Below, one piece after another: positions 10,140 through 24,684 of a DNA stretch of 24,684 nt; position 1 is the first letter of the stretch; each line of letters begins with the position of its first letter. Under the pieces are notes generated by a model that saw only the letters and a program-made list of their open reading frames with translations, was not told where the DNA came from and made no database searches. Origin of the DNA: a virus; the IMG/VR virus record IMGVR_UViG_3300043420_000962, positions 1-24,684 of that record; one strand, given 5' to 3'. The position numbers and the translations under genes are program-made.

Positions 10140-12359
10140 TCAGGCGAAGAGGTCTGCGTTTACGACGGTCGCGTTAGCCGTCACGAGACTGCCCAGGTAA
10201 TCAACAGGAATTGTTCCGTTAGATCCCACGTCGAGGACGTCTCCACCAGTTACCGTTAGACCGCCGCACCAGACGGTGAAAGTCAAGTGCGGCTGAACCA
10301 CGTAGCTCGCATCGGCGGGGTACGACGGAGCAACCCATGTCGCCAGGTCCTGCAGCATGAAGTGAACGTCTACCTCGAACGCATAAGACCCGGAGTCAAC
10401 CACCGTCTCTCCACTAACCGATGGCGCATTGCCGGGCCCCACAGGAGGCACGATACCGCCGCCCATATCGGGTCGCGAATCGCCAACAAGGTTATGGTCG
10501 ACGGTCACGGTCCCGTTAGAGTAGCCAATCCAGATGCCGTTTGTTACCAGGGCCGAGCCATCATCGTTGACACCCCAGGCGGTGGCGTCCATGCGCATGG
10601 CCATCAGCTTGTTCTTGCTGCTGTCATAGTAGCGGAACGGCATGCCAGGGTGCCAGTTGGTGGCGATTTCTTGTCGGAGGGACTCGCCGATCTGCATGCC
10701 GTACGCATCGCCCTTAACGAAGCGCTCAAGGTGATTCGAGTAGGCGGCAACGGCTGCGTTGATTTCCGCAGGGTTGTCGAACAACAGCGGCACGGGAATC
10801 TGCTCTTTAAGCACGTATGGGCCAGACTCGGTAGGGGGAGTCGTGTAGCGGCCAGTGTAGAGGCGCAGACGGGTGCTCTTATCGACAGTACTGGTCGTGG
10901 AGTTGTTGACGATGTCGGGGATCAGTGGGTTGGCGCTAATCGTTGTCGAGATCCTGCGCTGGAACGTCTTGATGCCAGACAGTGCATCAATTACGCCAGT
11001 AATGCCAGACTGGCGGCTGGTGATACTCGTGTAGGTGGTGGTCTCTTGCTTGTTAGCGTTGGTGTCGTAGAAGTAATCAACAATGACGCTAGAGACGCGG
11101 TACATATCAGTGGTTGACAGCGTCTGGAATCCCTGGGGAACGCCGTTAACATTGCCCGAACGCCAGTTGAAGGGCTGCGCTGCGGAGAGCACAGTGTTGT
11201 ACGTGTCGGTAACGGTTTTCACTAGCTCGTTGGCAGAGCCGTAGTAGTTGAGTTGCTCCTGGTAAGAGAGGAGGATCTCCTCTTCGCCGTCGGTGGGGCA
11301 GGCGCCATTGGGCTGACAGGCAGTCGCCCAAGTGTAGCGGCAGTATGCGAACTTGTCGGAAAAGTACTGACCGTTCGCCTCCAGCGCGGGGCCGCGAACC
11401 TCGTTGTACACTCGCGACAGCTGGCCACCGGGGCCGTTGTACTCGCTGCGACGGGTCTCGATCCGCTTAGCAGGCAGAATTAGCGGGGTCTGAACCGTCT
11501 CATAGCCTTCGTTACAGGAGGGGGTCCCGTTGTCCGCAGGCTTGGCAGGGGTATTGCCGCAGGCGGAGGCTTGCCCAGTAGACGCCGTGGCGGTGGCTGT
11601 TCCGCCAATGTCATTCAATGTGCCGCCAACCCGCTGATACATAACAGCGGGATAGGTGACATAGTAGTACGACTCGGTCGTTTCAATGTCGATCTTGCCC
11701 TTCTGATCGTTTGCGACGCTATCGCTGGGAATACGATACGAAAGCTCGATCTCATCGGGGACGGGAGAAGAGCCGGCTAGGGGCTGAGCGCTGAGTGCGG
11801 TAACGCCAAGAACTGATGTCCAGTTGCCAGCGGCCACGGACTCCGTGCTGTCGCCGTCGAAGAAGGTCCCAGAGACGAGGTTGCCCTGGTTGTTTTGATA
11901 CAGGTACTGGCCAGCGGATACAAACGCAGCCGAGACGTTAGAATAGCTGCGCTGAGTTGGATCAAGGTAGATCGGAGACAGAGAAACAAGCACATCTGTG
12001 TCGTCGGTCAGTTTTGCAAGGGCGAGCCGACAGCCTAACTCAATCGTCAGCTGGTTGTTTTCTGGACTGTATGAAGTAGTCATAACATACAGCAGACCAC
12101 GGGGGTGGCGAGCCGTAGTACCACCTGGATAGGTGACCTGGAGAATGACCTCGGTTCCACGCTTGAAATTGTCGCGGTCGTAGTCTTCTACGTCATATCC
12201 GCCAGGTTTCTGGCCCAGGACTAGAGTGCCGTTGGTGGCGATTAAGCCAGCCTTGTTACTGGAGCCGTCGGACGCGGTCCAGGAGATCAGTGATTCAGTG
12301 TAATCGACACCGTTGATCGTCAGACTGTGCAGACGAGTTTGGTTAACGAGATATGCCAT
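10140..12359 (-). CDS. Large minor tail protein (tail tip/hub candidate), 739 aa
   Basis: The N-terminal part, LTINGVDYTESLISWTASDG followed by LVLGQKPGGYDVEDYDRDNF, has the look of a tail-hub domain. The segment up to about residue 130 is beta-rich (LTIELGCRLALAKL). The centre has a few Cys (near residues 265-280 and 340-360) and Ser/Thr-rich stretches; the C-terminal 100 residues form another beta domain (GSYAFEVDVHFMLQDLATW). It lies third after the tape measure, where siphophages place tail-tip and hub proteins. The ATG follows the previous gene's TGA by three bases, so it is probably coupled to the 133-aa protein. No peptidase or lytic motif is recognised. The identification rests on size, order and style. 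Confidence 0.8.
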   Translation of the reverse strand: MAYLVNQTRLHSLTINGVDYTESLISWTASDGSSNKAGLIATNGTLVLGQKPGGYDVEDYDRDNFKRGTEVILQVTYPGGTTARHPRGLLYVMTTSYSPENNQLTIELGCRLALAKLTDDTDVLVSLSPIYLDPTQRSYSNVSAAFVSAGQYLYQNNQGNLVSGTFFDGDSTESVAAGNWTSVLGVTALSAQPLAGSSPVPDEIELSYRIPSDSVANDQKGKIDIETTESYYYVTYPAVMYQRVGGTLNDIGGTATATASTGQASACGNTPAKPADNGTPSCNEGYETVQTPLILPAKRIETRRSEYNGPGGQLSRVYNEVRGPALEANGQYFSDKFAYCRYTWATACQPNGACPTDGEEEILLSYQEQLNYYGSANELVKTVTDTYNTVLSAAQPFNWRSGNVNGVPQGFQTLSTTDMYRVSSVIVDYFYDTNANKQETTTYTSITSRQSGITGVIDALSGIKTFQRRISTTISANPLIPDIVNNSTTSTVDKSTRLRLYTGRYTTPPTESGPYVLKEQIPVPLLFDNPAEINAAVAAYSNHLERFVKGDAYGMQIGESLRQEIATNWHPGMPFRYYDSSKNKLMAMRMDATAWGVNDDGSALVTNGIWIGYSNGTVTVDHNLVGDSRPDMGGGIVPPVGPGNAPSVSGETVVDSGSYAFEVDVHFMLQDLATWVAPSYPADASYVVQPHLTFTVWCGGLTVTGGDVLDVGSNGTIPVDYLGSLVTANATVVNADLFA

Positions 12360-23812: not shown

Positions 23813-24058
23813 CTACTTCTTGATACGACGTCCGCCCTCCCCATTGCGGGCCCTGTTTCTACTGCGCTTCTCCAGTACCAGCTTACCATCGCGTGTGTGC
23901 GACACGTCCCTGTTCCCCATCTTGCCCTCGAGTCCATGCTTGCGCTTGAAACGTCTTCTCTCGTTGAACTTGCGCTTCTGCTTTGCCGTCTTGGCACGCT
24001 TAGCTTCATATTCTTTTTTCTTCTTGTAAGCTTCAGGGTTGGCCCTGTAGTACGCCAT
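23813..24058 (-). CDS. Small basic phage protein (RD-x-SH / RNRAR family), 81 aa
   Basis: Starts MAYYRANPEAYKKKKEYEAK at ATG 24058. The C-terminal part, GNRDVSHTRDGKLVLEKRSRNRARNG, matches a small phage protein family with an RD-x-SH core and a closing NRAR stretch. That family is common near packaging and head genes and is distantly HNH-like. The N-terminus is a Lys/Arg-rich helix suited to DNA or RNA binding. A TTG at 24112 would lengthen it by 18 residues but stands only three bases from the -10-like element. Its exact role is unknown. Confidence 0.75.
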   Translation of the reverse strand: MAYYRANPEAYKKKKEYEAKRAKTAKQKRKFNERRRFKRKHGLEGKMGNRDVSHTRDGKLVLEKRSRNRARNGEGGRRIKK

Positions 24059-24115
24059 TGTACCATTTTTGTGCGGGTTCTTGGTCTTACGCGCAGCTAT
24101 CGAGTCGCCCAAAGC

Positions 24116-24156: not shown

Positions 24157-24208
24157 AAAAAAAATGGCAGCTGCGATCCGGCCCGTTGGTCGAATTATCG
24201 CAACTGCC
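24157..24208 (-). terminator. Hairpin 1: minus-strand terminator with shared loop
   Basis: GGCAGTTGCGAT pairs with ATCGCAGCTGCC (12 pairs including one G-U on the minus strand) around a 19-base loop containing ACCAACGGGCC. It is followed by A and then eight T. On the plus strand the same stem has a C-A mismatch, so the minus strand is the better fold. Confidence 0.78.
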
Positions 24209-24254
24209 CGCCGTTTTTAATTTCCTGTTGCCCTCAACGCCCGCCGCAAAACAA

Positions 24255-24295
24255 ATCGTGATCGAGAGCGGCTCGTTGGTCGAGCTGTTCACGAT
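24255..24295 (-). repeat. Hairpin 2 with the shared loop sequence
   Basis: Outer stem ATCGTGA/TCACGAT (7 pairs) and inner stem GCTCG-ACCAA-CGAGC (5 pairs), followed on the minus strand by TTTGTTTT. The bases CGACCAACGAGCCG match the loop of hairpin 1, while the stems are unrelated. May act as a weaker terminator. Confidence 0.62.
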
Positions 24296-24526
24296 CTCGT
24301 TCTCGGTCTCCGCCGATTATGCCCTGTCTGGCCCCTGGAACGGCCACCGGCTAGCGGCGGTAGTTAGGATTCACGTTGCACAGCTTTCCTATGCGGGCGA
24401 TCCGAGCGGCCTTAATTCCGTCGGCGCTGCTGGCCCTCTAGTTGCCGACTACGTTGACAGCGATGGCGGCGGCTGACAAATAAAGAACTAGAGCTTTTAT
24501 TGGGTTAATTCCTCTTGGACTCTTTG

Positions 24527-24555
24527 AGTATGGCTTGAGATCAATCCGCTGTCAA
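24527..24555 (-). promoter_or_regulatory. Sigma70-like promoter TTGACA-17-CATACT
   Basis: TTGACA (24555-24550), a 17-base spacer and CATACT (24532-24527). The -10 hexamer is the same as in three GGCATACTA motif copies, which supports reading those motifs as -10 elements. The leading bases here are GC, not GG. No clear start codon follows. Confidence 0.6.
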
Positions 24556-24557
24556 GC

Positions 24558-24602
24558 GTGATCGTGAGCGGCCCGTTGGTCAGTTGTTCACGCTCAGATC
24601 AC
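24558..24602 (-). repeat. Hairpin 3 with the shared loop sequence
   Basis: GTGATC-TGAGCG pairs with CGCTCA-C-GATCAC (12 pairs, one bulged C) around a 20-base loop containing TGACCAACGGGC. It begins within the stop codon of the partial gene at the right edge. It lacks a T tract. Confidence 0.65.
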
Positions 24603-24684
24603 CATTCCCGTTGATCTGCACGGTGGCCCATTGCGGCATGCAGCTGTTGAGCCCAGTTGGCCTGTGCAGTGTTGGTGGGGCGCT
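24599..24684 (-). CDS. C-terminal end of an upstream gene (partial, 5' end outside the window)
   Basis: 27 codons then TGA: the visible residues include NTAQANWAQQLHAAMG and end ADQREW. Helical and protein-like, directly followed by hairpin 3 as expected for a gene end. One other minus-strand frame is also open here, so the frame is not certain. Product unknown. Confidence 0.42.
   Translation of the reverse strand, partial: RPTNTAQANWAQQLHAAMGHRADQREW

Follow-up and report, generated by a model that had tools for sequence, protein, structure and literature searches.

Integron arrays consist of small open reading frames (ORFs), and behind each stands an imperfect palindrome that folds, the attC site; some units are reversed, and whole units are reordered. 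Short repeats also stand at the gene borders of mosaic phage genomes, among them the boundary sequences of lambdoid phages and the start-associated sequences of cluster K mycobacteriophages. The hairpins described here are likewise repeats at gene borders, but to our knowledge the boundary and start-associated sequences are not hairpins in which a fixed core is combined with swapped stems. The known system that appears closest, and most alike in its working, is that of the promoter early stem-loops (PeSLs; Arbiol 2010, Comeau 2014), mobile regulatory cassettes of T4-like phages (PMC4503421). As far as the accessible part of that account goes, PeSLs are stem-loops between the small ORFs of a hyperplastic region and mediate gene shuffling among related phages. 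The hairpin arrays that concern us are best classed as a variant of such phage gene-border elements mediating cassette shuffling. They differ from PeSLs in their conserved core with swapped stems and in being gathered, up to 17 units at a time, into one dense array at a fixed locus.

The window (the whole 24,684-nucleotide stretch of viral DNA that was analysed) is, to judge by its major capsid and major tail proteins, a fragment of a Synechococcus siphovirus of the S-CBS2/S-CRES type, in contrast to the T4-like myovirus genomes that harbor PeSLs. An earlier note on this DNA had pointed to three hairpins with a shared core, and all three are found where it placed them:

24167..24208, plus strand: hairpin 1, a member at the array edge, with a different stem (GGCAGCTGCGAT / ATCGCAACTGCC) and an identical 12-base core
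24258..24298, plus strand: hairpin 2, a divergent member with inner arm GGCT (E 5.9e-4 with the window-free model R2, below)
24558..24602, plus strand: hairpin 3, a typical family member with arms GTGATCGTGA / TCACGCTCA and core GC-GGCC-CGTT-GGTC-AGTTGT
24299..24557, no strand: the interval between hairpins 2 and 3, which fits no ORF of at least 30 aa, in contrast to nearly all intervals of related arrays
23813..24112, minus strand: a gene of the phrog_6437 family, adjoining hairpin 1
24603..24684, no strand: the contig end, 87 bp past the last hairpin match

The hairpins are not isolated, as had been thought, and form the end of a cassette array that probably continues beyond the contig end. 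The 12-mer GGCYCGTTGGTC occurs exactly three times on the plus strand of the window, at 24180, 24270 and 24570; there is no occurrence on the other strand and none of the backwards-read pattern. A looser core search, allowing up to two mismatches, yields six matches in the window, which is not above chance (mean 4.1). Relative to shuffled sequences, the fold-energy z-scores are -3.0 (minus strand) and -3.5 (plus strand) for hairpin 1, -1.75 and -3.05 for hairpin 2, and -1.29 and -1.17 for hairpin 3, for which this support is weak: by energy alone, hairpin 3 is not unusual. For none of the three does the plus strand fold less well than the minus strand (-24.4 versus -24.0, -28.1 versus -23.4 and -20.5 versus -20.3 kcal/mol, respectively).

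Comparative evidence for the window hairpins is stronger than the folding evidence. Over 48 bp, hairpin 3 is 87.5% identical to a copy in Synechococcus phages S-CRES1 and S-CRES2. Covariance model R2, from which all window sequences were kept out, recovers hairpin 3 at E 2.6e-11 and hairpin 2 at the E value listed above, both scoring best on the plus strand, and misses hairpin 1 at E up to 1. Assignment of hairpin 1 to the family is accordingly a putative one, drawn from its identical core, its adjacency to the other two hairpins and its TGCGA/TCGCA stem, which resembles the first hairpins of two other arrays.

The family was defined with a model, R1, built from 21 copies and specifying an outer stem of 10-11 pairs, a mismatch, a single C-G pair, a 4-pair stem GGYC/GGYC, a loop CNNN(N) and a 3' bulge RATT. 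Additional viral contigs with multiple copies were gathered by stem and core patterns, and R1, run on 12 stretches, gives 65 matches at E<=2e-4, 63 of them distinct. Many further copies exist in related phages, which is in favour of the earlier note. The conserved core is [AG]C-GGYC-CNNN-GGYC-RATTG, and it is kept while whole stems are swapped. Among the 63 distinct copies, 91.5% of cells pair, with shuffles at 87.4% (sd 0.5). Both sides have changed in 45 cells, where shuffles give 13.2 (sd 3.0), a figure that counts sequences and not events. The claim that a fixed core goes with stems that change and yet stay paired therefore holds over the family. Pair 5/45, however, is unpaired in 21 of the 63 copies and never places a left G opposite a right C; pairing is not kept there, which counts against a strict pairing constraint. 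Double changes are seen in 7 pairs, against 5.7 in shuffles, which is no excess, 107 of 500 being equally high; nor is there one in further pair types (18, against 19.0). Double changes are mainly due to one switch to a second stem class, in which TGCGA/TCGCA replaces CGTGA/TCACG; this class is seen in 8 of the 63 copies and, in the window and two other arrays (L103 and L104), occupies the array end closest to the structural genes. Stems are thus replaced as blocks around a constant core.

The earlier note knew of no named RNA family with this loop, and searches with the Rfam family models agree: the window has no match, weak hits falling far below the gathering cut-offs. Candidate members were also discarded. 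The pattern GAGCGGCYCGTTGGTC matched 32 viral stretches, with the hairpin present in one of them (L021) only and the others due to chance; single matches that lack the core were dropped as chance after reading of the sequences; five records (G008, G009, G011, G012 and G013) were chance pattern hits with no model match; and L334 (21.7 bits) and L335 (26.5 bits), whose cores differ, are not counted as members.

Copies number from 1 to 17 per related phage record and are clustered in one array in each: 17 in G004, 11 in G005, 10 in G001, 7 each in G007 and G002, 6 in G034, 4 in G006, 3 in the window, 2 each in S-CRES1 and S-CRES2, and 1 or 2 in other fragments (counts that include weak matches, down to ~18 bits). 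At loci whose flanks were read, the array lies upstream of or adjoins structural genes. The major tail protein is common to all 17 records examined (4 complete phage genomes, 2 of them with hairpins, and 13 contigs that are possibly fragments), and the hairpins are oriented opposite to its gene in 15 of 15 hairpin-bearing records. In 10 of the 13 array-bearing IMG/VR records, the window included, the nearest array hairpin is less than 600 bp from a contig end, which fits assembly breakage by repeats or population variation.

The hairpins are not universal in this phage group. Relatives were collected by capsid protein (the best 80 of 137 loci, leaving out L162, the S-CBS2 copy). R1 found hairpins in 4 of 45 sequences (41 of these relatives and 4 named phages) and R2 in none of 38 further short relatives, many of them fragments that possibly do not reach the locus; the corresponding locus of S-CBS2 and of S-CRES3 is without similar hairpins. 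A short BLAST search of phages and plasmids gave nothing convincing beyond S-CRES1 and S-CRES2. The hairpin pattern also matched at least 119 stretches of host-genome contigs, with no cyanobacterium named in the titles of the matches listed. At E<=0.01 the model matched none of the 80 stretches taken (best 0.043), so these are chance matches, which double as a negative control. We found no account of these arrays in the accessible literature, mostly open-access, on S-CRES phages, PeSLs, cyanophage integrons, intergenic hairpins and boundary sequences.

Each array unit combines a hairpin with a short leader and a small ORF, and nearly every interval holds one ORF that ends at a hairpin. In 56 intervals of 8 arrays (the window being left out; its own two intervals contain no ORF), the longest ORF runs forward in 37 and in reverse in 19, and averages 87.9 aa against 60.2 (sd 2.3) after shuffling. 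It stops at the adjoining hairpin in 33 of the 37 forward and 15 of the 19 reverse cases, often on the arm's TGA, although the TGA codons of the arms make some of these stop positions built-in. The arm TGATCGTGA, found in all arrays, contains a pair of in-frame TGA codons, and the arm opposite offers the equivalent on the other strand; a single arm thus stops translation in one frame whichever side it is entered from. Where homologous cassettes differ, the changes lean towards synonymous ones when read in the ORF frame (for example 20 versus 8, 18 versus 14, and 39 versus 39). The synonymous excess is greater in that frame than in most others; the complementary frame of the opposite strand scores alike, as expected, but has stops.

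What the cassettes encode is mostly unfamiliar. When 67 ORFs (both strands of some intervals, taken from 103 candidates, and one window gene) were compared with PHROGs, Pfam and PADLOC, only 11 PHROGs and 4 Pfam families were matched, most products matching nothing, and no clear anti-defence signal emerged. The two S-CRES1 hairpins delimit gp61 and gp62; the depositors annotated gp62 as an S-adenosyl-L-methionine hydrolase, and here it matches DUF3574. A 15-bp perfect AT palindrome lies ~100 bp from the first S-CRES1 hairpin (L064:32142-32175), and a PcfJ-like protein of 605 aa is encoded directly after the array of 17 hairpins (L103:12014-13831). Beyond the arrays there is a second type of hairpin, with the same outer arms and a different inside (L103:14239-14275, L021:11246-11282, L103:13878-13915, and L105:10017-10056 and 10698-10736). 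Two of its copies have a common loop, AAAAGGCAG, and differing inner stems (ACAAC/GTTGT and TTAAG/CTTAA); a scan of the collection gave no further clear copy.

The strand on which the element acts had been taken to be the minus strand, on the strength of one G-U pair in hairpin 1. The family speaks otherwise. Read on the window's plus strand, the inner GGYC/GGYC stems of the 63 distinct copies have 62 G.U pairs against 3 A.C, and the outer stems, with 14 G.U against 18 A.C, show no strand bias; the core therefore points to the plus strand and the outer stem to neither. Nearly all copies have exactly one inner-stem G.U pair, at either 15/27 or 16/26 of alignment A6. A role in termination had also been proposed. 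T-rich tails, on either strand, accompany 5 of 68 copies, and window hairpins 1 and 2 are among these five (T8 on the minus strand, where ATTTTTTTT follows, for hairpin 1; 7 T of 12 for hairpin 2). Hairpin 1 resembles an intrinsic terminator of the minus strand (a G+C-rich hairpin after a stop codon), and could well be where leftward transcripts end at the edge of the array. Most copies, in contrast, are devoid of a T tract, and termination, plausible for hairpin 1, is not borne out as a family-wide function. An extended -10-like motif, chosen after the leaders had been viewed, is found within 90 nt downstream of 5 of the 68 hairpins (0.83/kb, against 0.11/kb elsewhere); thus the promoter that goes with each PeSL is not a general feature here.

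Direct evidence of reordering comes from one pair of arrays, L021 and L107, which share three full cassettes, hairpin to hairpin (L021 c3, c4 and c7 correspond end to end to L107 c1, c4 and c2, with 93.6, 93.6 and 90.4% identity), in a different order and with another cassette inserted. Hairpin 2 of L107 has the left flank of hairpin 4 and the right flank of hairpin 7 of L021, which places a junction inside the hairpin. Other shared cassettes are more distant (32-82% protein identity) and out of order. A family of 75-78 aa proteins is found in 8 cassettes of 6 arrays, once reversed, and homologues of the window gene at 23813-24112 (70-74% aa identity) lie within cassettes of two other arrays (L103_c5 and L104_c4) in the same reverse orientation. 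Neighbouring hairpins are also alike: their summed distance is 242, against 429 (sd 26.5) on permutation, and none of 5000 permutations equals this for the whole hairpin, the core or the loop. That is the pattern expected from exchange or duplication between adjacent hairpins.

These observations bear on the notion that the hairpins, set after each gene, serve transcription or RNA processing alone, as terminators, RNase III sites or stabilisers of 3' ends, amid gene turnover that is ordinary phage mosaicism. Placement directly after stop codons, inner-stem G.U pairs on the strand of most cassette ORFs and the T8 tail of hairpin 1 are all in keeping with it. We consider it unlikely nonetheless, because it leaves the similarity of neighbours and the chimeric hairpin unexplained, and because so few copies have T-rich tails and reversed ORFs lie beside hairpins of unchanged orientation. 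The S-CRES1 gene annotated as an RNase III endonuclease (gp1, L064:70-504), moreover, is matched by neither Pfam nor PHROGs at E<=0.01.

A site-specific system might be envisaged instead, in which the hairpins are attC-like sites folded from single strands and the recombinase is of host origin, belongs to a co-infecting element or is encoded by a phage gene that has gone unrecognised. The anatomy is integron-like (an ORF and then an imperfect hairpin, mostly in one orientation and at times reversed, the units moving whole and the locus being fixed); the RATT bulge is unpaired and conserved, and one strand has a single fixed G.T pair; and one junction falls inside a hairpin. Against this, Phage_integrase (PF00589, the tyrosine integrase of integrons), Resolvase and Y1_Tnp (PF01797) are each found in none of the 17 records, the GTTRRRY R box of the attC core sites (RYYYAAC...GTTRRRY) in none of 65 hairpins, and neighbouring sites are alike, as local homologous exchange would make them; we regard such a system as quite improbable. 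Least credible, and indeed very improbable, is a small mobile palindromic element of the REP/MITE type inserting after genes. Many near-identical palindromic copies per genome would suit it, but they occupy only one locus in each, cassettes move whole between hairpins, and the Y1 transposase of REP/IS200-like hairpins is the one just noted as missing.

On this evidence from sequence comparison, we think it probable that the hairpins are repeated boundary elements of an accessory-gene cassette array at a fixed locus of S-CBS2/S-CRES-type cyanosiphoviruses, gene-end hairpins that double as recombination joints. The arms would offer a TGA stop codon to reading from both sides, and the mRNA would probably carry the hairpin as its 3' end, where the fixed core may have a role as RNA. 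Since it is nearly the same between neighbours, the ~40-bp hairpin could also be used as a short homology patch for recombination, with strand annealing between hairpins gaining, losing, duplicating and reordering cassettes. The annealing would most likely be done by the phage's own Sak protein, with an exonuclease and the RusA resolvase. Genes for Sak, a single-strand annealing protein, for a nuclease like exonuclease VIII, for RusA and for SSB are present in S-CRES1, and annealing proteins of the Sak kind recombine short or diverged sequences, according to the accessible parts of two accounts (PMC5499656, PMC8093625). Sak is present in 5 of the 17 records and the exonuclease in 6; the array-bearing records in which a recombination module is present, G004, G005, S-CRES1 and S-CRES2, have both, and in the 11 other array-bearing records (contigs of 12-42 kb) neither was found. 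S-CRES3 has Sak and the exonuclease without hairpins, so the enzyme is not specific to arrays.

A bolder version of the joint hypothesis would make these arrays an integrase-free phage platform for cassette capture, a fixed slot in which the ~40-bp joint collects, inverts and reorders anti-host and accessory genes in integron fashion, a dedicated factor recognizing the GGYC-CNNN-GGYC-RATT core as folded single-stranded DNA or as RNA. We offer it as a speculation that is unlikely to be right in full. The hairpin joint bears on the question of how phages come by their many unknown small genes, cleanly bordered as these are: a countable, sequence-defined joint at each border makes exchange measurable by PCR or long reads. 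The cassettes themselves, with their mostly unknown proteins, point to a pool of candidate host-takeover and counter-defence genes of marine Synechococcus phages.
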